A stretch of 64,000 bases of DNA from Jannaschia rubra (GTDB taxonomy: Bacteria; Pseudomonadota; Alphaproteobacteria; Rhodobacterales; Rhodobacteraceae). The stretch's first letter is position 1. Every line of letters begins with the position of its first letter. The translations under genes were made by a program, and so were the position numbers. Below, one piece after another: positions 13,563 through 64,000 of this stretch. Location: NCBI RefSeq assembly GCF_001403735.1, contig NZ_CXPG01000020.1, positions 682,001 to 746,000 of the forward strand. Reading direction: 5' to 3'. Under the pieces are notes generated by a model. The model had not been told where the DNA came from. It did not search any database and worked only from the letters and a program-made list of their open reading frames with translations.

Positions 13563-13573
13563 CCATTGGCCCG

Positions 13574-13620
13574 ACCGCCCCAACGGCTTCCTGAAGGGGC
13601 GGGAAACACGCATCGGAGCA
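13574..13620 (+). promoter_or_regulatory. SAM/SAH riboswitch controlling metK
   Basis: CCGCCCC (13575-13581) pairs perfectly with GGGGCGG (13596-13602). The loop holds AACGGCTTCCTG, matching the conserved core of the SAM/SAH riboswitch class, and GGAGCA follows at 13615-13620, immediately before the metK ATG at 13626. In this class the loop pyrimidines (CTTCC) form a pseudoknot with the GGAG Shine-Dalgarno when SAM or SAH binds, blocking translation. The class is known upstream of metK in Rhodobacterales, exactly this context. Confidence 0.9.
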
Positions 13621-52724: not shown

Positions 52725-52799
52725 TCCGGCGTAGCTCAGCGGTAGAGCAGTTGACTGTTAATCAATTGGTCGTAGGTTCGATCCCTACCGCCGGAGCCA
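52725..52799 (+). tRNA. tRNA-Asn(GTT)
   Basis: 75 nt with encoded CCA: acceptor TCCGGCG/CGCCGGA, anticodon loop CTGTTAA (anticodon GTT), T-arm GTAGG/CCTAC with TTCGATC loop. All genes to its right differ in style from the chromosome on the left, and tRNA 3' ends are common integration sites, so it is a likely attachment site. Confidence 0.95.
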
Positions 52800-52934
52800 A
52801 TAAAATCAAGCACTTAGGCGATGCAGCCGCCCGGTGTGAGCTACTCAAGCACAGCATAGGTACAGTTTTTAGGCTCGGCACTGTGCCTGAGGGGGCCAAG
52901 CACCGTCACCCCGTCAAGGCGTTGAAGATGTAGG

Positions 52935-53636
52935 CTATTCCCAGATGACCTCGAACGCGAGGTACTCGGAGAGTACGCCCCGGATCATGAGGCTTCCCTC
53001 GGCCACGGCCAGGAACCTGTAGCGTCCTTTCTGCACCGTGATCCAGCCGCTGGCGTAGGCGTCATCTGCGATCAGCATCCGGTGCATCGCCCTGCTACCG
53101 ACCTCTGGCCAGATGTTCACTTCCGGCGCAGTCTCGAAGTGGTCGCGCTGGTCGTCCATCATGGAGACCAGCGGCATCACAAGGACGTGCTCGGGCTCGT
53201 CAAGGCGGGGTTCATTGAGCTCGTAGGCTGCATGGCACCTCGCCAGCTTCATGACGACGCGCCGCACCCTTTCGTCTTCCGGCTGCCAGACGTGGATCAA
53301 GGCGCCCCCGACGGTATCGCTCTGCCGGTGCCCACGCTCGATCCTATCGCGCAGGCTTCGGTTCCGGCGCAGTGCCCGCTTTATCTTGTCCCTTGACAGC
53401 TGCTCCGGGTCGCTGGTGCCACAGACGACGCACTCGATGAAACAGGCCAGGTATTCCTCGTCGCCAGAGAAGCCGTTGTTGCAGTCGCCACAACTCGGGA
53501 GCGACGGCATGTGCTTAGGGTGCGGTAGGTCCAAGAAGACCTTCGAGGGTGCGTGGTCCTTTGACTCGGTTTGGCCACCGCAGTGGACGCAGAAGCCTTT
53601 TTGCCTGTCGTCGCCGTTGTTCGGTAGTCTTTCCAT
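52935..53636 (-). CDS. HNH-type nuclease with zinc-binding CxxC pairs
   Basis: A 233-residue protein. The N-terminal segment FCVHCGGQTESKDHAPSKVF (about residues 16-35), then PSLPSCGDCNNGFSGDEEYL, forms an HNH/treble-clef nuclease core: two CxxC pairs hold zinc, DH supplies the catalytic histidine, and the CN-x-GFS-x-DEEY helix is typical of this HNH subgroup. The rest (about residues 80-233) is unassigned and could be a target or partner domain. ATG 53636 lies 13 bases after the vsr stop. It is the last gene of the parB-SNF2-vsr-HNH operon and ends about 135 bases from tRNA-Asn. Confidence 0.75.
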   Translation of the reverse strand: MERLPNNGDDRQKGFCVHCGGQTESKDHAPSKVFLDLPHPKHMPSLPSCGDCNNGFSGDEEYLACFIECVVCGTSDPEQLSRDKIKRALRRNRSLRDRIERGHRQSDTVGGALIHVWQPEDERVRRVVMKLARCHAAYELNEPRLDEPEHVLVMPLVSMMDDQRDHFETAPEVNIWPEVGSRAMHRMLIADDAYASGWITVQKGRYRFLAVAEGSLMIRGVLSEYLAFEVIWE

Positions 53637-53649
53637 CTTCTCGCCCCAG

Positions 53650-54072
53650 TCAGTCTTTGTGTTCAACAGCATCTGCGACCCGTGCCGCAACTTGGGCAAC
53701 GGCGGTCGCCCCCTTCAGCTCGCACTCCCACACGACAATCAGGCGCCAGCCCAAGGCGACCAGCGCCGCGTCCCTCTCACCGTCGCGCCTGACGTTGCCC
53801 TCCAGCTTCGGGCGCCAGTATTCGAGGCGCGAGGCCGGAAGGCGCCCAGCGGGGCAACCGGCGTGCTGGTGCCAGAAGCACCCGCGCACCTGTACCGCCA
53901 ACCGCTGACGCGGGAACACGACGTCGGGCGATCCCGGTAGGTCCCGCCGGCATACCCTGAACCTGAGCCCCATCCCGTGCAGCGCTGACCTCAGCGCCAC
54001 TTCCGGTTTGGTGTCACGACCGCGAATCCGGGCCATGTTTCTGGAGCGTTGGTCGGGCGTGATCCGATCCAT
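53650..54072 (-). CDS. Vsr-family (very short patch repair-like) endonuclease
   Basis: A 140-residue endonuclease of the Vsr fold. The N-terminal DQRSRNMARIRGRDTKPEVAL, the PGSPDVVF motif with the catalytic aspartate, GCFWHQHAGC with zinc and base-catalyst residues, and the C-terminal GWRLIVVWECEL are present. Classical Vsr nicks next to T:G mismatches left by deamination of 5-methylcytosine made by Dcm. The residue before GCFWH is Arg where E. coli Vsr has His64. It starts two bases after the SNF2 gene stop, so it belongs to that operon rather than to the methyltransferase transcript. Confidence 0.88.
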   Translation of the reverse strand: MDRITPDQRSRNMARIRGRDTKPEVALRSALHGMGLRFRVCRRDLPGSPDVVFPRQRLAVQVRGCFWHQHAGCPAGRLPASRLEYWRPKLEGNVRRDGERDAALVALGWRLIVVWECELKGATAVAQVAARVADAVEHKD

Positions 54073-54074
54073 CT

Positions 54075-55568
54075 TCAGGCGGAACCCGCAGCCACTTGTC
54101 TCTCCCCCGGGTCGCCGACAGACGGCAGCCGGTTGCTGGTGAGCAGGTCGCACATCTCCTCCTGCGAGAGACTTGCCACCAATTCGCCCGCTCCTCGGTC
54201 GCCGAGAAGGCTCCTAGCCAGCGCCGACTTCCGTTCCAGCGCCGTCACCACGGCCTCTTCGATCGTGTCCGTAGCGAGGAGGCGGACGTATGTGACGGGC
54301 TGTGTCTGGCCTATCCGATGGTTCCGGTCCTGGCTTTGCGCGTAGTGGTCGTAGCGCCACGACAGGGATTCATAGATCGTGAAACTGGCGGCTGTCAGCG
54401 TGAAGCCTGTACCGGCGGCGGCCGGGTTCGCGATCAGAAGGCGGGTGTCCTGATCCTCTTGGAAACGCTTTGCGATGCCTTGCCGCTCATCGTTGGGTGT
54501 GGCCCCATAGATCGCGACCGCCCCGGGGAATCGCTGAAGGAGCTGTTCGATCGTCCGGATGTAGTTCGACCACAGGATGACCTTTCTTCCCGGCACAGAG
54601 AGGATGTCGGCGATCAAGCCGTCCAATGCCTCGAACTTCGCCGGCAGTCGGTCTAGTTCCGGGAAGATCAATGCCGGATTACTGGCAATCTGGATGAGCC
54701 GGGTCAGCTTGGCCAGTGCGGTGGACGCATAGGCCAGGTACTGCTCGCCCGTCATCTTCCTGATTTCGGCGACCATCTCGTCCCGCATCTGGTCATATAC
54801 CCGGCGCTGCCAGTCGGGCAGTTCCACCCTCAGATCGGCATAGGTCTTTTCCGGGAGGTCAAGACATTGCTCCTTCGTGCGCCTCAGGATCAGTCTGTCA
54901 AAGGTCGCCTGGGCAAACTTGGCGGTGGGGTCATCTTCAAGCATCGCCTTGAAAACTTCGGCCGAACCCAGACTGGCCTTGCCGGGCTCCAGAATCTCGA
55001 CCTGGGTGTGAAGGTCTTCGGCCGTGTTCGTCACAGGCGTGCCCGACAGCAGCCATCGAAACGCCGCATGCGGCGCAACCGCCCGCATCGCAGTTGAGGT
55101 CAAGGATTTCCAGTTCTTCGCGGCGTGGGACTCGTCCAGCACAAGTGCAGTCCGCTGCCGCTGACAGAGCGCGATGAGCGCAGTGGTTTCGGCGCGGGCG
55201 GTTTCGTAGCTGGTGACCACCACCCGCGCGCGGGTAGCCCTGAAGGCGGATCGACGGACCTTTGGGGGGCCCTCAACAATCTCCACCGTCACATGGGGCG
55301 CAAACTTGCCGAACTCGGCCACCCAGTTGCGCTTTAGGGAGTTGGGGCAGACAACCAGCAGACGGTCGGCCCTGCCCGATTCCAGAAGGCGCCGGAATGC
55401 CTCGATTGCAACAAAGGTCTTTCCGAGGCCCTGCTCAAACGCAAGCAGCCCGACGCCCTGACCCGTCAAGAAATCGACGCCTTCCTCTTGGTGAGCAAGA
55501 AGGTCGAAGCCCACCTTACTGCCCACCCGGCGTGCCGTGAACTTCGACCAGCCCCATGAAGTAGGCAT
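54075..55568 (-). CDS. SNF2-family DEAD/DEAH-like ATPase (helicase/translocase)
   Basis: A 497-residue two-lobe superfamily 2 ATPase: Walker A EQGLGKTF (about 45-52), DESH box in LVLDESHAAKNW (about 143), LLSGTPVTN, then the second lobe with KVILWSNYIRTIEQLL and the motif VI region SQDRNHRIGQTQPV, typical of SNF2/Swi2 translocases. There is no fused nuclease or target-recognition domain, so it must work with partners. ATG 55568 has AAGGA close upstream and overlaps the ParB-like gene by 53 bases, so translation is probably coupled; a GTG near 55510 would avoid the overlap. Confidence 0.88.
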   Translation of the reverse strand: MPTSWGWSKFTARRVGSKVGFDLLAHQEEGVDFLTGQGVGLLAFEQGLGKTFVAIEAFRRLLESGRADRLLVVCPNSLKRNWVAEFGKFAPHVTVEIVEGPPKVRRSAFRATRARVVVTSYETARAETTALIALCQRQRTALVLDESHAAKNWKSLTSTAMRAVAPHAAFRWLLSGTPVTNTAEDLHTQVEILEPGKASLGSAEVFKAMLEDDPTAKFAQATFDRLILRRTKEQCLDLPEKTYADLRVELPDWQRRVYDQMRDEMVAEIRKMTGEQYLAYASTALAKLTRLIQIASNPALIFPELDRLPAKFEALDGLIADILSVPGRKVILWSNYIRTIEQLLQRFPGAVAIYGATPNDERQGIAKRFQEDQDTRLLIANPAAAGTGFTLTAASFTIYESLSWRYDHYAQSQDRNHRIGQTQPVTYVRLLATDTIEEAVVTALERKSALARSLLGDRGAGELVASLSQEEMCDLLTSNRLPSVGDPGERQVAAGSA

Positions 55569-56763
55569 ATGCGTCCTTGAACTCGCTTAGGTCATCCGGC
55601 GAAAGGTCCCGCACATCTGCCCGGCTGGCCTTGTTAAGGGTCCGTGCGGCCTTCTTGATCGCTAGCCGATACGGATGAACTCCATCGTGGACCTGATCCT
55701 CGATAATGTCGATCGCCTTCTGTAGCTCCGCCACATCATCATCGTCGAAGTCACCTTCCCCACGATCCACGGCCCGCTTCAGAACTTGCGTCAGCCCTGC
55801 AATCTTGACTTTTGGGCTGGAGCTCTTGCTTTCGACTTGGCGGGCAAGTTTATTCGCAACGTGCTCCTCCCCCGACTTCAACTGGTCCCATGCGTCCGGA
55901 TCGTCATGAAACTCCTTCAAGAACCGCGCGTCGCGGTACTCCTTGAAGGCGTGGTTGCGGACCATGCCAAAAACGTCTTCGCGCAGCTGGTCGTAAGAAG
56001 AGTTGGAATAGTCCTTGAGTTGCGAGCCAATGACACGAGCCTTGCTGATCTCCTCAAGAACACTGAAGTTCTTTGCGGTGAACCGATCAATCGGTTCCTC
56101 ACCGATATGATCCTCGTCGATGTGTTCCTTGAACTGCATTGCGAATTCGTAAGCGCTCTTCAAGCGATTCACCCAAGCCAGTGACTTCTCCATGTATTGG
56201 GCCATCTGCGCCTGGTTCATAACAGGCGGCTGCCCATTCACCCCCACGACTTTCTCATAGATAAATTTGGCCTGAATGTATCTGTCCCAGGCGCGCACCC
56301 CGGAACCGCGAACGTGAATTCGGGCAAGAAGGATCGCTTGCTCAAGTTCGCCGAAGTTCGGAGGGAGAACTTTCGCCTTTACTCGCCTGAAGACGCCCTC
56401 CTTGATGCCAGATGTGTATTTCCGGTCCAGCGCCCTAAGGATGCAAACGCGGGTAGCGCCCTCAAGGACTAGGAACTTTGCGGAGTCGTTCGGACGCCAG
56501 ACGTATATCGGCTCCATTTGACCTAAATCGTTGATTGAAGTGCGAAGAGCATCGTACCCCCCGGTCAACTGAAGCGTTGCCTCCAGTTCGGCTTCGGACG
56601 AAATGTTGGAAACCGGCAGATGGGACTGAAGCCTCGGGTTGGCATCCCACAAGCGCACTTCGCCGTGCACGTCGAGCAGAACCTCGGGCAGCTCCCATTC
56701 GACTGCGCCGTACTTCTCGTGGTGGATCCGGGCGGGAGCCTTGGTAAGGGTGTCGGTAGTCAT
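55516..56763 (-). CDS. ParB/Srx-fold domain protein
   Basis: A 415-residue protein. Residues about 20-140 resemble a ParB N-terminal (ParB/sulfiredoxin-fold) domain: MEPIYVWRPNDSAKFLVLEGATRVCILRAL has the strand-glycine-x-x-R pattern of the ParB nucleotide-binding motif. The remaining 270 residues are helical and charged, with a putative HTH region (MNQAQMAQYMEKSLAWVNRLK) after it, as in ParB proteins. It lacks a plasmid-partition partner (ParA). ATG 56763 has AAAGG seven bases before it. It is the first gene of the operon with SNF2, Vsr and HNH genes and is divergent from the methyltransferase. In a defence context ParB-fold proteins can act as nucleases or NTP switches (inference). Confidence 0.7.
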   Translation of the reverse strand: MTTDTLTKAPARIHHEKYGAVEWELPEVLLDVHGEVRLWDANPRLQSHLPVSNISSEAELEATLQLTGGYDALRTSINDLGQMEPIYVWRPNDSAKFLVLEGATRVCILRALDRKYTSGIKEGVFRRVKAKVLPPNFGELEQAILLARIHVRGSGVRAWDRYIQAKFIYEKVVGVNGQPPVMNQAQMAQYMEKSLAWVNRLKSAYEFAMQFKEHIDEDHIGEEPIDRFTAKNFSVLEEISKARVIGSQLKDYSNSSYDQLREDVFGMVRNHAFKEYRDARFLKEFHDDPDAWDQLKSGEEHVANKLARQVESKSSSPKVKIAGLTQVLKRAVDRGEGDFDDDDVAELQKAIDIIEDQVHDGVHPYRLAIKKAARTLNKASRADVRDLSPDDLSEFKDAYAYFMGLVEVHGTPGGQ

Positions 56764-56779
56764 GTCCAAACCTTTCATA

Positions 56780-56815
56780 ACTTGCTGCAGCAATTCGTAG
56801 CAAGTAATAGCAAGT
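56780..56815. promoter_or_regulatory. Operator-like repeat cluster between the methyltransferase and ParB-like genes
   Basis: Two direct copies of TAGCAAGT (56798-56805 and 56808-56815) and an inverted near-copy ACTTGCTG (56780-56787). The last overlaps a perfect 12-bp palindrome TTGCTGCAGCAA (56782-56793). The cluster lies 17-52 bases upstream of the ParB-like start, within a 153-base divergent promoter region. No dedicated regulator gene is adjacent; the methyltransferase or the ParB-like protein could be the binder. Confidence 0.55.
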
Positions 56816-56916
56816 CGATCAAGGAAGATTTTTTGGGCTGTCAATCTCCGTACTTCCGACATATTGTTACCATGGGTGTTCGCGCCCACAGATGTTGAAT
56901 CGGAACGGGGTTCGGG

Positions 56917-58143
56917 ATGACGGGCGTGAGTCTGCACGTGAGGAGGTCAGAGCTACCAGCGGGTCCCCGCTGCGTGGACCTCTTCGCCGGTGCAGGCGGC
57001 CTTGCGGTCGGTTTCCGAAGCGCCGGGTGGGCCGTGGCGTGTGCCAATGATGACGATGCCGATGCTTCGGCGACCTTCCGGCTGAATTTCCCCGAGACGG
57101 CTTTCTTCGAGGGTCCCGTGGCACAGGTCGCGGCGGCCGACCTGCTTCGAGAGGCCGAAGTTTACCCCGGCGAACTCGACTGCCTTATAGGCGGCCCGCC
57201 CTGCCAGTCGTTCAGCCACAACAACCACCAGCGGAACGCGACCGATGACCGGGCCAAGCTTTTCAATCACTACCTTGGACTCGTGAACGCCCTGAAGCCA
57301 AAGACCCTCGTCATGGAGAACGTGCCAGGCATTCTCTCCATCGATGACGGCGGGGTAGTTCGTGAAATCGTCTCCCGTCTGACCGAGATGGGTTATGACA
57401 AGCCCTGCGTTCGCCTTCTGTCCGCAGAAGAATTCGGCACGCCTCAGGTCCGTCGTAGGGCTTTCATCGTTGCTAGCAGGGTCGGACCCTCGGCTGAACT
57501 GATGCCATCTCCCACCCACTGGTCGCCTAGGTACTCCCACCGCGGATGGCCGTCCGAGCGACCAGATGGAGCAACCTCGCGGCCGGTAACGGTGTGGCAG
57601 GCTATCGGCGACTTGCCCGAACTGGAGAACGGAGGGGGCAAGACGGCGGTCAAAAGGGACTGGCGCTGCGCGACAACCGCATTCCAACGGTCGGCACAGG
57701 CCGGGGCGCCGATCATTTTCAACCACGTATGCCATGCGCTGACCGACGTTAACCTGAAAAGGATCGTCCACGTCCCGGAGGGTGGGAATTGGCGCGACGT
57801 GCCGCGCGACCTGCTCCCAGCAGGGATGCAGCGGGCCCGGCTCAAGGACCATACCAAGCGATACGGGCGGCTATCGCGTGACGGCTTCGCTTCGACCATC
57901 CTTACCAAGTGTGACCCGCATTGGGGCGCGTACGTCCACCCGATGCAGGATCGAACCATCTCGGTTCGTGAGGCAGCGCGTCTGCAAGGGTTTCCGGATG
58001 TGTTCCGATTCGCTGGCGACAAGATCGGCCCTCAATACACACAGGTCGGGAATGCCGTGCCTGTGTCTTTGGCGCGCGCGATCGGGCTTTCCGTACTGGC
58101 GCACCTGCAACGCCACACCAGCGCACTCGTGCAGGCCGCCTGA
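56917..58143 (+). CDS. DNA (cytosine-5-)-methyltransferase
   Basis: A 408-residue m5C methyltransferase with all key motifs: I DLFAGAGG (21-28, SAM binding), IV GGPPCQSFS with catalytic Cys96, VI ENVPG (134-138), VIII QVRRRAF, and X TQVGNAVP near the C-terminus. A variable region between VIII and IX (about 195-320) holds the target-recognition domain, whose specificity I cannot read. It is divergent from the ParB-SNF2-Vsr-HNH operon, which suggests protection of self DNA in a restriction-like or repair-linked system. It is convergent with a small minus-strand gene. Confidence 0.95.
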   Translation: MTGVSLHVRRSELPAGPRCVDLFAGAGGLAVGFRSAGWAVACANDDDADASATFRLNFPETAFFEGPVAQVAAADLLREAEVYPGELDCLIGGPPCQSFSHNNHQRNATDDRAKLFNHYLGLVNALKPKTLVMENVPGILSIDDGGVVREIVSRLTEMGYDKPCVRLLSAEEFGTPQVRRRAFIVASRVGPSAELMPSPTHWSPRYSHRGWPSERPDGATSRPVTVWQAIGDLPELENGGGKTAVKRDWRCATTAFQRSAQAGAPIIFNHVCHALTDVNLKRIVHVPEGGNWRDVPRDLLPAGMQRARLKDHTKRYGRLSRDGFASTILTKCDPHWGAYVHPMQDRTISVREAARLQGFPDVFRFAGDKIGPQYTQVGNAVPVSLARAIGLSVLAHLQRHTSALVQAA

Positions 58144-58194: not shown

Positions 58195-58653
58195 TCAGAC
58201 CTTCGAATTCCTGCGCATGGGGACGTCCACGCCTTTCTTGCGGAGGACCGAGGCCACCGAGGCCACCGACCGGGCGGACGTCTGGGCATTTGGGAACTCG
58301 GCCACGACGGCATCGACGATCGTCGCGTAATCCAGCGCCTCGTCCATCAGAAGTTCCTGCACCATAGAGCCTATTGTTGGCTTCGGCTGCTCGGACGGGC
58401 TGTCCGATGCTTTCTCGGTGGCCTCCGCCTCGGGCATGTCAGCCGCACGGTCGCCGAGGACGCTGCACTTGACCACGATCGAACCGGGGTGCTCGCTGCG
58501 CTTCTTCTCGGCCAGGTCGGGGCGGCCGCAGAAGCCGACCGCCGTCCATTCCTCCTCGCTCTCAAGCAGGACTGCGTGGGTGTAGGTCCGGTCGGTCTTG
58601 CGGGTGTGCTGCGAGCCGTCGGGGGCGGTGGCGACGTAGGTGGTCTTGGTCAT
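58195..58653 (-). CDS. Hypothetical protein (mobile-element gene)
   Basis: A 152-residue protein, acidic in the middle and with a possible winged-helix-like end (TIVDAVVAEFPNAQTSARSVASVASVLRKKGVDV). The N-terminal segment TYVATAPDGSQHTRKTDRTYTHAVLL looks like small phage proteins with a beta-rich start. GAAGGAT-type ribosome site before ATG 58653. Function unknown. It is the gene nearest to the methyltransferase on the opposite strand. Confidence 0.65.
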   Translation of the reverse strand: MTKTTYVATAPDGSQHTRKTDRTYTHAVLLESEEEWTAVGFCGRPDLAEKKRSEHPGSIVVKCSVLGDRAADMPEAEATEKASDSPSEQPKPTIGSMVQELLMDEALDYATIVDAVVAEFPNAQTSARSVASVASVLRKKGVDVPMRRNSKV

Positions 58654-58977
58654 GGCTGGTATCCTTCTAAGCAGAGGGCGACCTTCGCCCGCTCAATGGG
58701 TCCACCTTGTCGTGAAGCGGGAAGCCCGCGAGCGCCCGCTGGGAGCTCCGTAGCAATTCGTCGTTGAGATGGAGCGGGTTGAAGGCCACCAGTCCCGCAG
58801 GTGCTCGCCCGGCTTAAGTCCGTGGCTGGTTGGCCTGCTGCCGATCTAATGGCTCGCGCTGACCTAGGCCCTCGTGGTCGGTCTGGCTGACATGCCCCGC
58901 CGCCGCACGCGCTGGTCTAAGATTGACCCTGGGCTGGCGGCGAGGCCGAAGGGCGCGAAAGTGCCCCTTGCGACGGG
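58654..58977. other. Gene-free leader region with a shared 10-mer
   Basis: 324 bases with no convincing coding sequence. It contains one copy of AGCAATTCGT (58752-58761), also present near the ParB-like start (56789-56798) and, inverted, at 61817-61826, and several short GC-rich inverted repeats. Confidence 0.4.
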
Positions 58978-59367
58978 TCAGTGAAGTCTGCTTGGCGAAG
59001 ATGGTTCGTCTTCCTCGGCATCTTCCTCCGGAACGTAGGGCCGCGAGAACCCCTCCTTTAGCTCGTCCACCTTATCTCCGAGCGCGCCTAGAACGGTCCG
59101 GATTTCACCGCAGTCCCCGTCTGCATCCATGCTGTATAGTAGTGCATTGATCAGCCCGGCACCGTAGTGATGACCGTATTCCTCGACCAGGTGCTCGACC
59201 AGGCCAATCATCCGCAGTTGTTCCTCGCTGTATCCGCCGCCCTGACGGAGCTGCTCGACGGTACCGTTCTCGAGCGTCGCTCGTGGCATGACGAGGTTCA
59301 GCCGCACGACGTCGTGGATCGCGTTCTCGCCGTCGACATCGTACATTGAGGTCTCTTTGGTAAACAT
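58978..59367 (-). CDS. Hypothetical acidic protein (mobile-element gene)
   Basis: A 129-residue, acidic protein. The first part (DVVRLNLVMPRATLENGTVEQL) and the middle (LVEHLVEEYGHHYGAGLINALLY) are helical. The C-terminus is Glu/Asp/Ser-rich (PEEDAEEDEPSS). GGAGAG five bases before ATG 59367 supports this start, although an ATG seven codons later is possible. No family recognised. Confidence 0.6.
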   Translation of the reverse strand: MFTKETSMYDVDGENAIHDVVRLNLVMPRATLENGTVEQLRQGGGYSEEQLRMIGLVEHLVEEYGHHYGAGLINALLYSMDADGDCGEIRTVLGALGDKVDELKEGFSRPYVPEEDAEEDEPSSPSRLH

Positions 59368-59564
59368 GGTTCTCTCCATATTATCACGGGGCCCCCAGCG
59401 GGGCGCCTGAGAGGAAAGTCCCAGAACGCGAGCGGCGGGTAACCTATTATTACGGCCCGCTCCTGCAAATAATGGTGTGGCCCGCAAGACACACTGAATG
59501 AGAGAGGCCGCGCAGACGGATGGTCTGCACGGCCAATTTCGCAGTTTTTCGTGTTGTCAGCGGA

Positions 59565-60005
59565 TCAGGTAAGGTCAGCGCGAGCCGCCGCCACGTCGGC
59601 CTCGGTGGAGCCGCCCGTTGCGAGCGTGTGCGCCTCCTCGCGTGTGCGGATCATGGAGCGACCAATGTCGGTGTCGAGCGCCTTGCAGTAGGCCTGTTCG
59701 AACGTCTCGCCGTCAGCCTGCATCGACTTTGCGAGGGCGTCGAGCTGTGCGTCGACGCTCGCCATGTTGCGGATTGCCCGCTTCGTAACCGTGTCGTTCA
59801 TGTCTTCATCCTTCTTTTCCATCTGAGCGGCGGCGCGAGCGGACTCGACCTCCTGTTCCAGTCGTTGAACGTGCGAGGCCAGTTCCAAGACCTCCTGTGC
59901 CTCGGCCTCGTCGCGCGCCAGGCGCCCAAGCGCGTCTTCCAGCTCCATGCGTTTGCCCTCCAGGCGGATCAGTTCCGCCACGTGGCGTTCGCCTTCCTTA
60001 CTCAT
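59565..60005 (-). CDS. Hypothetical coiled-coil protein (mobile-element gene)
   Basis: A 146-residue protein with a predicted coiled coil over about residues 5-70 (heptad-like Leu/Ala/Glu pattern, for example LEGKRMELEDALGRLARDEAEAQ in part). The C-terminal half includes FEQAYCKALDTDIGRSMI. Its start overlaps the stop of the upstream 215-residue gene (ATGA), so the two are coupled and may form a complex. Function unknown. Confidence 0.65.
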   Translation of the reverse strand: MSKEGERHVAELIRLEGKRMELEDALGRLARDEAEAQEVLELASHVQRLEQEVESARAAAQMEKKDEDMNDTVTKRAIRNMASVDAQLDALAKSMQADGETFEQAYCKALDTDIGRSMIRTREEAHTLATGGSTEADVAAARADLT

Positions 60006-60649
60006 TTTAGTGCCTCCAGTTCTTTGGCAGCTTGCGCCGCCAGGTGCTTCTGCGGTGACGCCGCCCTGAGCCGCAGCAGTTCCAAGTTCAGGCTCTCGGC
60101 GACACGGCCCTCGGCGTCGGTCAGGCTGATCGAGTGGCGGGCCTTGATCGGGGTGTCGACGCCCAGGGCGCGGGACAGCTCGCTGCCGCCCGCGGCGATC
60201 ATGGCCTTAATAAGGGCCTCGCTGGCGCGGTTGTTGGTCAGCACGCGGTCGATGGGACCGACGTCGCCGCCCGCCGCAGCGGTCTGGCCTACTCCCTGGC
60301 GCACAGCTTCGCGGTAGGCGGACCAGTTCGTCGCGAGGTCGGTCAGTGCCCTGTCCACGGCCGCCGCCAGCTTGCGGCGGTCGCTGGCCGTGTCGATCGC
60401 ACCCTGCACCTGACGGGTCCGCTTGGCGCGATCCTGGCTCGCCACCGCGTCGGCGGACCGGTCCTGCAGTTCCGCGATCGCGTCGTCCACGATCTGGATA
60501 TGTTCGGCCAGTGCCGCGGCAGTGCCGCTGGGCTTCTTGCCCGTGATAAGAGCGTTGGTGGCCTCTGCGCGGGCCTTCTCTCGTTCTTCGACCAGGCGGG
60601 CACGCTCCGTACGCAGTTCCACCAGTCGTTTGTTCGGGTCGTCTGCCAT
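60002..60649 (-). CDS. Hypothetical coiled-coil protein (mobile-element gene)
   Basis: A 215-residue, Ala- and Arg-rich helical protein. A coiled coil covers about residues 8-75 (LVELRTERARLVEEREKARAE). GAGGAG eight bases before ATG 60649 supports the start. Its stop overlaps the start of the next coiled-coil gene. I recognise no family; a virion-associated, scaffold-like or regulatory role cannot be distinguished. Confidence 0.65.
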   Translation of the reverse strand: MADDPNKRLVELRTERARLVEEREKARAEATNALITGKKPSGTAAALAEHIQIVDDAIAELQDRSADAVASQDRAKRTRQVQGAIDTASDRRKLAAAVDRALTDLATNWSAYREAVRQGVGQTAAAGGDVGPIDRVLTNNRASEALIKAMIAAGGSELSRALGVDTPIKARHSISLTDAEGRVAESLNLELLRLRAASPQKHLAAQAAKELEALK

Positions 60650-60846
60650 TCGTTGGCTCCTCTCACTGGCGTCGGAATTGGGTTGGTGGCGCCCGGCAGT
60701 TGGAGGACCGAGCGCCACCGGGGGCCGGACCTGAGGGAGGCAGGCCCGTCGCGGTCGTGAGGCCCGCTAACGCCAATCATTGAACCTCACCCGACGAGCA
60801 TGTCGCGTCTCGGTGCCACGGGGGACCAGCGAGTGTCGGTCGGGCG

Positions 60847-61230
60847 TCAAGCGCTGGCGGCGTCGTCGCCGAGGAGATCGATTTCCATCTGCATCAGGAA
60901 CTCGACTGGCGCACCCTCCGTGTTGAGAAACTGGCCCGGGTTGTCTTGGACGTCGCTGCGGTAGGAGTGCCAGCACCGGGCGTTCGAGCAGTCCACGCCC
61001 GCGTCGATGAACGCCCGCATCGCGGGACGCACCCAGCCACGAGGGAACTTCACACTCCCGTGGACATAATACATTGCGGCCAGCAACCGCGCGACGTTGG
61101 CCCGCATCGTCAGCCCCGGAAGTGGCGGGAGGTCCGCCACAGCCTCTTCGACCAGGGCGTCGGCCAGAAGCTGGGTCCTGGCGTACGTTAGGCGGGGCAG
61201 CTCGGGCGTCGGCCGCTCGGGGGCTTCCAT
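60847..61230 (-). CDS. Hypothetical protein (mobile-element gene)
   Basis: A 127-residue protein; two cysteines in DCSNARCWHSYRSDVQDNPG could bind a metal or form a disulfide. AGAGGA seven bases before ATG 61230 fixes the start. Flanked by leaders of about 200 bases on both sides, so probably an independent transcript. No family recognised. Confidence 0.6.
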   Translation of the reverse strand: MEAPERPTPELPRLTYARTQLLADALVEEAVADLPPLPGLTMRANVARLLAAMYYVHGSVKFPRGWVRPAMRAFIDAGVDCSNARCWHSYRSDVQDNPGQFLNTEGAPVEFLMQMEIDLLGDDAASA

Positions 61231-61369
61231 GGGCGATCCTCTCGGTGTCGGGGTGCGCGCATCGTGTCACGTGCGCCCGCGCCAGTAAGCCAACGAGGGC
61301 GTCCCGCCGACATTCAATCAGCGGGACGATCAGCCGAGAGGGCAATAAAGACAGGGACTTGTGGTCCAA

Positions 61370-61395
61370 GCCCGGAGCCGGGCACAGCTCCGGGC
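61370..61395 (-). terminator. Hairpin after the 107-residue gene
   Basis: Perfect 9-bp stem GCCCGGAGC / GCTCCGGGC with an 8-nt loop, beginning 17 bases after the stop of the upstream minus-strand gene. No long T-run follows. Confidence 0.45.
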
Positions 61396-61411
61396 ACAGT
61401 GAAGGGGCGGT

Positions 61412-61735
61412 TCAGCCGATGAAGATGCAGTTGCCGAGGCGCGCGACCTCGACCTTGCCGGGCGTGCCGCCGTTCTCCGCCTTGAGTTCGTTGAAGTGGA
61501 CCTTCGCCGCCAGCACCTTGAGCGCCTGAGCGGCGGAAACCATCAGGCTCTCGTTGATGTCGTAGCAGCGCGTGGGCTCGCCGTTCTCGGCGAACTCGGT
61601 CAGGACGGGCAAGTCGACGCGGAGGAAGAAGCGGACCTTACGGATGCGGGTGACGAGTTTCACGGCGTCGGTTGGGTCCAGGTACACCTTGAGGGTCTCG
61701 TCCTGCTCATTCAAGAGGGGCGCGTAGTCGGTCAT
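61412..61735 (-). CDS. Hypothetical protein (mobile-element gene)
   Basis: A 107-residue protein with a mixed alpha/beta pattern (VKLVTRIRKVRFFLRVDLPVL, KVEVARLGNCIFIG). A strong AAGGAGA precedes ATG 61735. It is followed by a hairpin terminator and preceded by a 234-base leader with the shared 10-mer. No family recognised. Confidence 0.65.
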   Translation of the reverse strand: MTDYAPLLNEQDETLKVYLDPTDAVKLVTRIRKVRFFLRVDLPVLTEFAENGEPTRCYDINESLMVSAAQALKVLAAKVHFNELKAENGGTPGKVEVARLGNCIFIG

Positions 61736-61969
61736 GGTGATGGTCTCCTTGTCTGATACGCCCTTTATGTCGGGTTGCGGGTTTCCCGCGAGCGGGCCGA
61801 ACGACCGCGCTGGCTCACGAATTGCTACGTTAGGGATGGGCCAGCACCGCCCTGCCGATCATGGATCAGGGGGTGTCGGCCACGAGGGGTGAATCGGATC
61901 AGGGGCTTGGGACCGGGGCGGGACGACGCGCACAGTGCGGAGTACAGGGCGACCGTCCTCAGCCCCTCG

Positions 61970-62254
61970 TCAGGCCTCAAAGTACGCCGTGCCAGCGATC
62001 CAGTGCAGGAGGTCCCTGCGGGTCGCATCGTCCAGGTCGAGACGGGTTTCCACGGACCATTCGGCTTCGCCCCTCGTGGCCTTCGACTGCCAGGGCGTGG
62101 CCTCACGACCCTCGCGCATCTCGGCGATCAGGCCGTCGCTGGGATCGTGCAGGTATCCCGTCGCGACCCGCATCGTCTCGTACCCGTCCGCGAACTTGAC
62201 CGTGGCCGTGCCACCGGCCCTGACTATCGTCACCTGGATCGCATCGTCACTCAT
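61970..62254 (-). CDS. Hypothetical protein (mobile-element gene)
   Basis: A 94-residue protein (MSDDAIQVTIVRAGGTATVKF...). ATG 62254 overlaps the stop of the TerS-like gene upstream, so they are coupled. The beta-rich start and helical C-terminus (DDATRRDLLHWIAGTAYFEA) suggest a small folded domain. No family recognised. Confidence 0.6.
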   Translation of the reverse strand: MSDDAIQVTIVRAGGTATVKFADGYETMRVATGYLHDPSDGLIAEMREGREATPWQSKATRGEAEWSVETRLDLDDATRRDLLHWIAGTAYFEA

Positions 62255-62822
62255 CGGACTGTCCCCCGGTCTCCTCTGGCGTCCCCTGGAGCACTTCGGC
62301 GTCCTCGATGCCGTGTCGACCGCCCGAGGCCTCATCGATCACCACCGAGCTCCGCTCGGCCCTCTGTGGCTGCACGAGCCTGGGCCTGGAAGGCAGGCCG
62401 TTGTTGACGGTCGTGTTGACCTGCAGGTTGGTTTGGGCGGGGCCGTCCACGTTCGGCACCCGCTTGTCGATCAGCTTCGAGAGGATGCGGGCGTCGACGT
62501 GCGAGACGTCCAGGACCAGGACGGGCTCGAAGTCGTCGTTCAGCACGGGTTCGCCGTCCTCGTCGGTGGCCTGCTTCCAGCGACCGAGGCCCAACTCGCG
62601 GGCGGTGTCCATGACGTCCTGGGTCAACTGGTCCTGGAAGATCGCCATGGCGATGTCCCACCCGCGCCTGAAGTCGTCGTCGCGGTGCTTCCAGTAGTAG
62701 ACGTTCGGCCTGGGCAGCCCGAGCTGGGCGCACGCCACGGTCACGTTGCCGACCTCGACCAGGCGTTCCAGGAAGGCGCGCTTGAACTCGGGCGACGGCT
62801 CGCTGGCGTGCGGGTGCATCAT
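62247..62822 (-). CDS. HTH protein resembling phage terminase small subunit
   Basis: A 191-residue protein. Residues about 10-60 (EFKRAFLERLVEVGNVTVACAQLGLPRPNVYYWKHRDDDFRRGWDIA in part) fit the N-terminal helix-turn-helix of phage small terminase subunits, which recognise packaging (pac) sites. The later part has an acidic segment and a SKLIDKRVP stretch. No large subunit is in the window, as in satellites that redirect a helper's terminase (inference). The start could be ATG 62822 or the next codon, 62819; the frame is open further upstream, but that part does not look coding. Confidence 0.6.
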   Translation of the reverse strand: MMHPHASEPSPEFKRAFLERLVEVGNVTVACAQLGLPRPNVYYWKHRDDDFRRGWDIAMAIFQDQLTQDVMDTARELGLGRWKQATDEDGEPVLNDDFEPVLVLDVSHVDARILSKLIDKRVPNVDGPAQTNLQVNTTVNNGLPSRPRLVQPQRAERSSVVIDEASGGRHGIEDAEVLQGTPEETGGQSDE

Positions 62823-63152
62823 CCCCGTCGATGCCCGAGGGCCCGCCGCTGGTGCGCTGTGGTGTCGAAGCTGGCTCAATTCGTGCCCTCCCGCTGTGTC
62901 CGTTGCTGTGCTCGGGACGCCCCTCGAGCGCCAAGCCCCTGATCCCGTTTGCCTTCCCGTCCCGACGCCCCCTGATCCTAAATCAGAGGGGCAGTGTTCA
63001 AGCAGGGCGAACAGGGGCGGCTCGCCATGTGCGCGAGGCGTCCTCGCTCTCTCGGGATACGATGTCGCGTTCACCCAGCACGGGAAACCAGCGTTGCATG
63101 GCGGGGAATGTGGGCCTCTGCCCTCCATCCAAGCGGGTAGCCTGACCGGCCG

Positions 63153-63183
63153 AATAAGGGCGGACAAGCGGACAAGGGCGGAC
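63153..63183 (+). repeat. Left arm of 31-bp perfect inverted repeat, iteron-like
   Basis: Exact inverted copy of 63267-63297. The repeat unit CGGACA begins at 63161, 63169 and 63179, so each arm is itself a short tandem array. Confidence 0.9.
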
Positions 63184-63266
63184 AGCCCTTCGAGCTTATA
63201 AGGAAAAAGAAATACACACTGACAGAATAATACTGAATTAAATTTCGCGTATAATGCCAAAAGCCC

Positions 63267-63398: not shown

Positions 63399-64000
63399 TC
63401 AGCTTGAACTCGACCGTGCCGCCCACTCGGTTCTGGCCGCCTCGATGATCTCCTTCATCACCGCAGGCCTCTCGCGCTTCACCCGCAGCACGTCCCACGC
63501 GCCTCTACGGGCTATCACGACGGTGTCCTTCTCGTTGCCGCTCGAACCCCGCTTGTTGAACCGCCGCGAGGTCACGGCGCCACCGGCCTCGTCGATCACA
63601 AACTTGAGGTTCGCGGGGAACCCGTCACAGGTCTCCTCAAGATGGGCCCAGACGTCCGACAGGCCGATCAGGTCGGCAGGCCATGCCTCGAACAGGACCT
63701 TGAGCTCGCGATGCTCCTCCTTCTCCAGGAACTCGACCACCGACCTCTTGGCGTCGGTCATCGGCGCCGGTAGCCCCGGGTTGAAGGCCGATATGTCACG
63801 CTCCCTCAACAGCCGCGCGACGGATGCGATGAACGCGGGGTCGCGCCGCGTCTCGTACAGGTCCCCGTAATAGGAGGGTTCCCGCACCTTCTCGGGGTTG
63901 TAGGCCACGCGGATGCGCCGGTCCCGGTCGTCGATCGGCAGGGCGTCCATGAAGTTCGAGAACATCAGGAACCGGCAGCAGTTGTACTGGACCGACTTGA
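63399..64000 (-). CDS. Phage/plasmid-type primase-helicase, DUF5906-like (5' part outside window)
   Basis: The frame enters from the right edge and ends at 63399; about 200 C-terminal codons are visible. The segment CRFLMFSNFMDALPIDDRDRRIRVA is characteristic of the C-terminal part of superfamily 3 helicases fused to primases (P4/NrS-1-like, DUF5906), where the FSN...DDxDRR motif lies near the arginine finger. Such proteins start replication of phages and satellites. The P-loop and primase domain would be upstream, outside the window. It neighbours the inverted-repeat region, as expected for an initiator beside its origin. Confidence 0.75.
   Translation of the reverse strand, partial: KSVQYNCCRFLMFSNFMDALPIDDRDRRIRVAYNPEKVREPSYYGDLYETRRDPAFIASVARLLRERDISAFNPGLPAPMTDAKRSVVEFLEKEEHRELKVLFEAWPADLIGLSDVWAHLEETCDGFPANLKFVIDEAGGAVTSRRFNKRGSSGNEKDTVVIARRGAWDVLRVKRERPAVMKEIIEAARTEWAARSSSS

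Follow-up and report, generated by a model that had tools for sequence, protein, structure and literature searches.

An m5C methyltransferase, a ParB-like protein and an SNF2 ATPase form the conserved core of a restriction-like cassette in an integrative element of Jannaschia rubra

The tRNA-Asn end of an integrative element of Jannaschia rubra carries a gene cassette that is probably, though by no means certainly, an ATP-dependent, modification-guarded restriction system, the defence cargo of this satellite-like element. The cassette lies in the 64,000-nucleotide stretch analysed here (contig NZ_CXPG01000020.1, positions 682,001 to 746,000; hereafter the window, whose coordinates are used throughout). 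A sequence-only reading had presented five genes as one system, namely a DNA 5-methylcytosine (m5C) methyltransferase (MT) opposite genes for a ParB-like protein, a stand-alone SNF2 ATPase, a Vsr-like endonuclease and an HNH nuclease. The conserved unit is smaller and consists of the MT, the ParB-like protein and the SNF2 ATPase. The restriction or modification logic proposed for the set is nevertheless supported by a cassette resembling restriction–modification (R-M) systems, whose core recurs at unrelated loci and which lies next to a tRNA gene, at one end of a mobile element.

The conserved core of the cassette

All five open reading frames (ORFs) are open at the positions claimed for them, the MT on the forward strand and the other four on the reverse strand. 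The MT gene (408 aa; 56917..58143) is separated by a divergent spacer of 153 bp (56764..56916, delimited by start codons chosen by homology) from the gene of the ParB-like protein (415 aa; 55516..56763), for which homologues favour the ATG at 56763, with 56778 as a possible alternative. The SNF2 gene (479 aa; 54075..55514), the Vsr gene (140 aa; 53650..54072) and the gene of the HNH-like protein (233 aa; 52935..53636) follow. The reported gaps of 2 and 13 bases between these last three withstood a check of start codons by homology; the reported 53-base overlap did not, as it arises from an upstream ATG of the SNF2 gene, and homologues favour a GTG at 55514, so that a single base separates this start from the stop codon of the ParB-like gene.

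Relatives of the ParB-like protein were retrieved by several scans. The class scan yielded matches in three of 385 genomes, the organism's own included, and the order scan in three of 390 (E 1e-12); two of these order-level matches were full length, and the scan added locus L045. Two exact peptide patterns, which miss diverged members, gave eight loci on genome contigs (L006–L013), and IMG/VR added L041. At phylum level, 15 of 398 genomes matched at E 1e-3, the window's own being the only full-length protein; in another class (around G527), two of 369 matched at E 1e-10, both being distant ParB proteins with no cassette and no SNF2 homologue nearby. The plasmid and phage collections held no full-length relative. 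Once duplicates were merged (L002 = L004 = L008; L003 = L005 = L013; L042 = L045; L062 = L041), 11 non-redundant full-length loci remained, window included.

In 10 of these 11 loci the SNF2 gene stands directly after the ParB-like gene (it is truncated by the contig end in L012, a 3.2-kb contig from a Thermoanaerobaculia bin whose placement a binning error may explain), and in nine an orthologous MT (53–69% identity) diverges from it. At L045, a NotI restriction endonuclease (PF12183, E 5.7e-97), a different m5C MT (46%) and a Vsr adjoin the SNF2–ParB pair in place of the orthologous MT. Conversely, a class scan anchored on SNF2, with at most four first-look candidates scored per genome, found a close match (E 1e-90 or better) in two of 385 genomes, both adjoining a ParB-like gene. 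As a control, we considered the 17 distant ParB matches (14 from the phylum, one from the order, two from the other class): at a cutoff of E 1e-5, homology to SNF2 was found in one of the 12 neighbourhoods fetched (L046), and homology to the MT or to Vsr in none.

That unrelated defence genes were simply juxtaposed in an integration hotspot is a very improbable account of the whole. The HNH gene, found at the window locus only among the cassettes, and the varying nuclease slot would suit it; the three-gene order, however, is repeated next to different tRNAs and among different neighbouring genes. Moreover, the host genome holds only three SNF2 and two m5C-methylase matches in total, so that chance neighbourship should be rare. 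Chance is thus contradicted for the three-gene core and still valid for HNH. Co-occurrence near m5C methylases at unrelated loci, fixed beforehand as the point on which the idea would turn, was found for the MT, the ParB-like protein and SNF2; HNH was found in none of the other cassette loci, and Vsr is optional. Association is accordingly above chance for the three core genes, partly so for Vsr and not for HNH.

Indeed, Vsr occurs in six of the 10 judgeable loci (window, L006, L007, L010, L041 and L045) and was not found in L008, L009, L011 and L013, L012 being not judgeable. The window's HNH-like protein has no blastp homologue in the 10 other loci, of which L012 is barely judgeable. The five-gene system was rejected on these two counts. 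Other nucleases lie near the core elsewhere: an HNH_2 protein in L007 (E 6.4e-11), an Mrr-type nuclease beside the MT in L008 (E 6.9e-15), and GIY-YIG-like proteins, below cutoff, in L006 and L010. A protein of 208 aa directly after Vsr is conserved in L006 (12069-12695) and L041 (12033-12659); no Pfam family matches the copy in L006 significantly.

All four gene families compared give pN/pS ratios below 1, namely 0.10–0.30 for SNF2 (36 pairs), 0.12–0.39 for ParB (36), 0.27–0.39 for MT (28) and 0.23–0.57 for Vsr (15), in pairs that exclude L012 and L013 and of which most are near saturation at synonymous sites. The closest SNF2 pair, L006–L041, has a dN of 0.042 and a dS of 0.60. DNA identity between these two loci is 0.40–0.73 across the MT, the ParB-like gene and the 5' part of SNF2, and 0.82–0.97 from within SNF2 through Vsr and the genes beyond. 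This step inside SNF2 suggests that the half holding the MT, the ParB-like gene and the start of SNF2 has been exchanged separately from the effector half.

Two further loci, L046:3174-10418 (G792) and L051:2346-13305 (plasmid p187_1 of Bradyrhizobium sp. 187), hold a ParB-like and SNF2 pair whose SNF2 is 30–36% identical to that of the window. Its neighbours are a GHKL-like ATP-binding protein (by reading), a second protein of ParB/DGQHR type and a radical-SAM protein (annotated as such in L051; in L046 its Pfam score lies below the cutoff). This gene group is possibly a different defence-type set.

Methyltransferase and its predicted target

The MT (METHYLTRANSFERASE) matches PF00145 and TIGR00675 above cutoff. 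Its closest plasmid relatives, at 42–47%, adjoin a NotI-family restriction endonuclease in all four records opened (25 listed, 781 matched). We aligned 17 sequences, comprising eight cassette MTs, five NotI-partner MTs and four other m5C MTs, and compared the region between motifs VIII and IX with the rest. Among cassette MTs, agreement was 62% in this region versus 61% elsewhere; with NotI-partner MTs, it was 48% versus 45%, and with the four other m5C MTs, 22% versus 35%. The NotI restriction enzyme (PF12183) was found zero times in the host genome and once in the positive control (G769). Because of this kinship, and because no NotI enzyme was found, the MT probably has a NotI-like target, GCGGCCGC being the recognition site of NotI, and something else as its nuclease partner.

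ParB-like protein, SNF2 ATPase and accessory nucleases

The ParB-like protein is, as judged by profile comparison, a remote relative of subunit A of the PD-lambda-5 defence system. Aligned with three PD-lambda-5 A proteins by hhalign, it gave a probability of 97.2 and an E-value of 3.5e-11 over 161 columns, which include LWxxNPRL and EGxxR; in the same comparison, a negative control with the Vsr alignment gave no match. The protein itself displays LWxxNPRL and LEGxTRV, with a helix-turn-helix-like stretch after the domain (read from the sequence). The ParB/Srx fold attributed to it is thus favoured by remote homology, and less so by family searches: no ParB Pfam model matched, and PADLOC returned two weak matches only, PDC-M38A (E 6.4e-7) and PD-Lambda-5_A (E 2.8e-6), the latter profile (PDLC03995) being aligned at 18-100 of 503 only. 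ParB/Srx domains include nucleases and NTPases (PMC5512222, PMC10853773), a ParB-methylase of Bacillus cereus is reported to nick DNA (PMC5512222), and a HEPN family is mentioned as sharing an operon with a ParB nuclease and a DNA methylase (PMC3710099).

The identity of the stand-alone SNF2 ATPase is well founded, as it matches PF00176 (E 8e-35) and Helicase_C and carries the motifs GLGKT, DESH, SGTP and QSQDRNHRIGQ. Matches to PF04851 ResIII (E 2.3e-13), to the BrxHI/BrxHII and PbeA profiles and to the Dnd restriction-helicase TIGR04095 (27 bits, cutoff 600) are taken as apparent general helicase similarity. Proteins of the SNF2 family are described as moving along duplex DNA (PMC5512222, PMC10853773). 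A phage origin of this gene was considered and rejected: 1944 phage records match, all below 60% identity, and in IMG/VR the one close locus among 74 SNF2 loci is again the L041 cassette.

Vsr was correctly named, passing both TIGR00632 (142 bits, cutoff 98) and PF03852 and matching PDB 1cw0 (E 1.2e-28). All five Vsr proteins encoded after SNF2 (window, L006, L007, L010 and L041) have an arginine at the position of the catalytic histidine 64 of the Escherichia coli enzyme, and read VRGCFWH versus FTHGCFWH in E. coli. Outside those five, eight of nine aligned Vsr have histidine before GCFWH and one (L061) has arginine; the Vsr beside the NotI set of L045 has histidine. An m5C methylase lies within 3.5 kb in eight of eight plasmid Vsr sets opened (193 plasmid records have a Vsr match), four of which were reached through an HNH match and are not a random draw. 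Vsr corrects mispairs arising from m5C deamination (PMC8011034). As main restriction nuclease of the cassette Vsr is not favoured, being not found in L008, L009 and L011 and accompanying m5C methylases generally.

The HNH nuclease claim stands in part. The pattern CxxC..DHxPSK..CxxCN marks a putative nuclease, and DHxPSK...CxxCN is common to five plasmid homologues; on the other hand, no Pfam or NCBIfam model matches and there is no obvious third histidine. In an alignment of six sequences, D27, H28, C49, C52 and N53 are invariant, and five of the six retain the first cysteine pair. Homologues at 33–43% identity occur in nine plasmid records, and four of the six opened hold them near m5C/Vsr sets, with other partners.

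Integrative element and mobile context

The claim that the cassette lies where a mobile element meets a tRNA gene is confirmed by a direct repeat and an integrase. The element, of 15.6 kb, is integrative and bounded by direct repeats of 49 bp, with the cassette at its tRNA-Asn end. Its integration target is a tRNA-Asn(gtt) gene (52725..52799, forward strand; ARAGORN, and Rfam RF00005 at 72.4 bits), whose 3' part forms the first repeat copy (52753..52801); the second lies past the window end (68316..68364). Family scans placed a tyrosine integrase at 67051..68175, also past the window end, and a primase-polymerase gene on the reverse strand (63399..64000 in the window, reaching 65870). Between the latter and the cassette lie small reverse-strand backbone genes, most without family match (58195..63260), including an ORF weakly similar, below cutoff, to terminase small subunits (62247..63260). 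The Sulfitobacter locus L011 contains homologues of four backbone genes, a fifth match there being an overlapping antisense ORF; backbone homologues are fewer in L008 (integrase 57%, weak primase-polymerase), L041 and L045. With a primase-polymerase, an integrase and a terminase-small-like protein (in L011, and weakly in the window), the backbone looks satellite-like.

In five loci, the cassette has a tRNA gene at its SNF2 end (window Asn, L008 Arg, L009 Leu, L011 Leu, L045 Gly). Integrase-like ORFs, named from their sequences, lie on the SNF2 side of L006, L007 and L010, that of L007 being 32% identical to the window integrase.

Such a context invites two other readings. According to the first, which we regard as unlikely, the MT, the ParB-like protein and SNF2 would form an anti-restriction or establishment module that protects or processes element DNA on host entry, as a split DarB/DdrB-type polyvalent protein. 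The cassette is mobile-element cargo, and tRNAs or integrase-like genes adjoin related loci; the weakly terminase-small-like ORF is about 4 kb away; and SNF2–methylase dyads and ParB domains are features that polyvalent proteins of phages and conjugative elements typically have (PMC5512222). However, the dyads described there use adenine methylases, whereas the cassette MT is an m5C enzyme of the NotI R-M clade; the genes are separate here, and Vsr and the swapped nucleases suit R-M better. The second, to which we give less credence still, takes the same restriction machine to be an addiction module, which selection would maintain chiefly because cells that lose the element die. The location inside an integrative element, with a tRNA gene alongside in the five loci above, agrees with it; addiction alone does not explain the variable extra nucleases, and its mechanism overlaps that of the restriction system we favour.

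Outside the window, an 18-bp third copy of the tRNA-Asn end occurs at 89610-89627 (window coordinates; contig C20), and by eye the ORFs within 68365-89627 resemble genes for another integrase, for a type I R-M set and for a protein of Abi_2 type; perhaps a second element is integrated in tandem at the same tRNA-Asn over this interval. Elsewhere in the window, a SAM/SAH riboswitch aptamer (RF01727, 52.2 bits) lies at 13572-13620 on the forward strand.

Comparison with known systems

The cassette had been said to match no known system. No named system fits the set as a whole, and no description of ParB, SNF2, m5C methylase and Vsr as a single set was found in the consulted parts of the open-licence PMC literature, but four of its parts are shared with the MORC and paraMORC R-M operons (Iyer et al. 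2008, PMC2292703), which on our comparison are the closest published kind. Those operons combine an m5C methylase, SWI2/SNF2, Vsr and HNH with a GHKL ATPase. The cassette differs in having a ParB-like protein, and no match to the GHKL (MORC or paraMORC) ATPase was found in the five cassette proteins, the primase-polymerase, the integrase or nine backbone ORFs. As the search for this defining ATPase was negative in these proteins, we do not file the cassette under MORC R-M.

PD-lambda-5 (Vassallo et al. 2022, PMC9519451), which PADLOC defines as a pair of ParB-like protein and D12 methylase, and which has tested anti-phage activity, likewise associates a remote homologue of our ParB-like protein with a DNA methylase. 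Its subunit B is, however, a D12-class N6-adenine methylase, whereas the cassette methylase is a PF00145 m5C enzyme, and the ParB-like match covers 161 columns, not the full length of subunit A. Similar pairs occur at L031:4447-6839, L032:7845-10249, L033:4716-6956 and L141:5572-7940 (PADLOC recognized both subunits in L031 and L032 and subunit A in L033; L141 was named by eye only), and no SNF2 or Vsr homologue was found beside the first three.

As regards NotI-type type II R-M (with Vsr), the cassette MT groups with NotI-partner methylases, motif VIII–IX region included; the difference is that the host genome lacks a detectable NotI endonuclease and the cassette has ParB–SNF2 instead. Like Dcm–Vsr, the cassette has an m5C methylase accompanied by a member of the Vsr family, but it adds the ParB-like protein and SNF2, Vsr is optional, and arginine replaces the histidine of E. 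coli Vsr. The SNF2 core is similar to DrmD, ZorD, DpdE and BrxHII of DISARM, Zorya, Dpd and BREX, yet falls far under such NCBIfam cutoffs as exist for them (60.9 versus 610 bits for DrmD, 78 versus 1500 for ZorD); no partner genes of these systems appear among the matches listed. Among the best 25 of 40 PADLOC matches for SNF2 and the best 25 of 64 for the MT, only DrmD- and DrmMII-type DISARM proteins appear, and the partners DrmA, DrmB and DrmC do not. HsdR/HsdS, Res/Mod, PglZ/BrxC and DndCDE are not named among the Pfam, NCBIfam and PADLOC matches listed for the cassette. On present sequence comparisons, the cassette looks like something that works as an R-M system while not being filed as a member of MORC R-M, PD-lambda-5 or NotI R-M.

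Proposed function

From gene content, gene order, selection, mobile context and the relationships of both the MT and the ParB-like protein, all observed here, we infer the partnership of the core proteins, their target, cutting and a role in defence. The MT would place m5C on host and element DNA, marking self, at a GC-rich site probably of NotI type. The ParB-like protein, through its ParB/Srx-type N-terminal domain and helix-turn-helix-like stretch, would bind DNA and partner the SNF2 translocase, and the pair would act on DNA without the m5C mark. A cut or nick could then be made by the ParB/Srx domain, by a neighbouring nuclease (Vsr, GIY-YIG-like, HNH, Mrr or NotI), or by both. Vsr would most likely repair T:G mismatches from m5C deamination, and HNH would be exchangeable, accessory cargo in a variable nuclease slot. 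Since ParB and SNF2 are constant and the nucleases variable, this pair is the likely engine of the system. The R-M logic itself is proposed because the plasmid relatives of the MT adjoin NotI endonucleases and because L045 joins SNF2–ParB to a NotI endonuclease, the 46% MT and Vsr.

Several observations weigh against the restriction system favoured here. Cutting is the weakest link of the mechanism: the three core genes encode no recognised nuclease except the presumed ParB/Srx one, and Vsr and HNH are non-conserved members. The best PDB sequence match of the ParB-like protein (6ryk, E 0.078) is non-significant, and SNF2 also resembles many unrelated defence helicases (ZorD, DpdE, BrxHII, PbeA). 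A close ParB relative at L013 (8878-10164, = L005) has neither SNF2 nor MT alongside; this locus comes from a Hyphomicrobiales bin, and its flanking genes read like housekeeping genes. An attachment repeat was found for the window only, the stretches searched at L008, L009, L010, L011 and L045 having yielded none. Finally, L009 and L011 show no Vsr or HNH homologue and no other nuclease was noticed in their ORFs, which were read by eye and not family-scanned, the left flank of L009 stopping at the contig end.

This last point would also suit an orphan m5C methylase with Vsr repair, in which the ParB-like protein and SNF2 serve as regulators or maintenance proteins without any restriction; Vsr and methylase alone would follow the Dcm–Vsr logic. 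We hold it improbable, as SNF2 beside the ParB-like gene is more constant than Vsr (10/11 versus 6/10 loci) and L045 couples the ParB–SNF2 pair to a NotI restriction enzyme.

Beyond the restriction system that we favour, the ParB-like/SNF2 pair may constitute its own class of ATP-dependent restriction engine, with the ParB/Srx protein in an HsdR/HsdS-type role and pluggable modification partners, a tentative extension whose chances we rate short of even. Those partners would be the m5C methylase in the window, the NotI R-M–Vsr set in L045 and the apparent GHKL/radical-SAM/DGQHR set in L046 and L051.

PADLOC (2023) scores both the MT and Vsr as components of type II R-M and gives the ParB-like protein its two weak matches only, so that such loci would probably be annotated as R-M scraps. 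If the proposal is true, the cassette MT is predicted to protect DNA from NotI or from an enzyme with an overlapping site, and PD-lambda-5-type ParB proteins, NotI-type R-M and SNF2-based defence would become linked. In that case, a ParB/Srx-type protein with an SNF2 motor would stand in for the usual restriction subunit, in combination with different modification enzymes.

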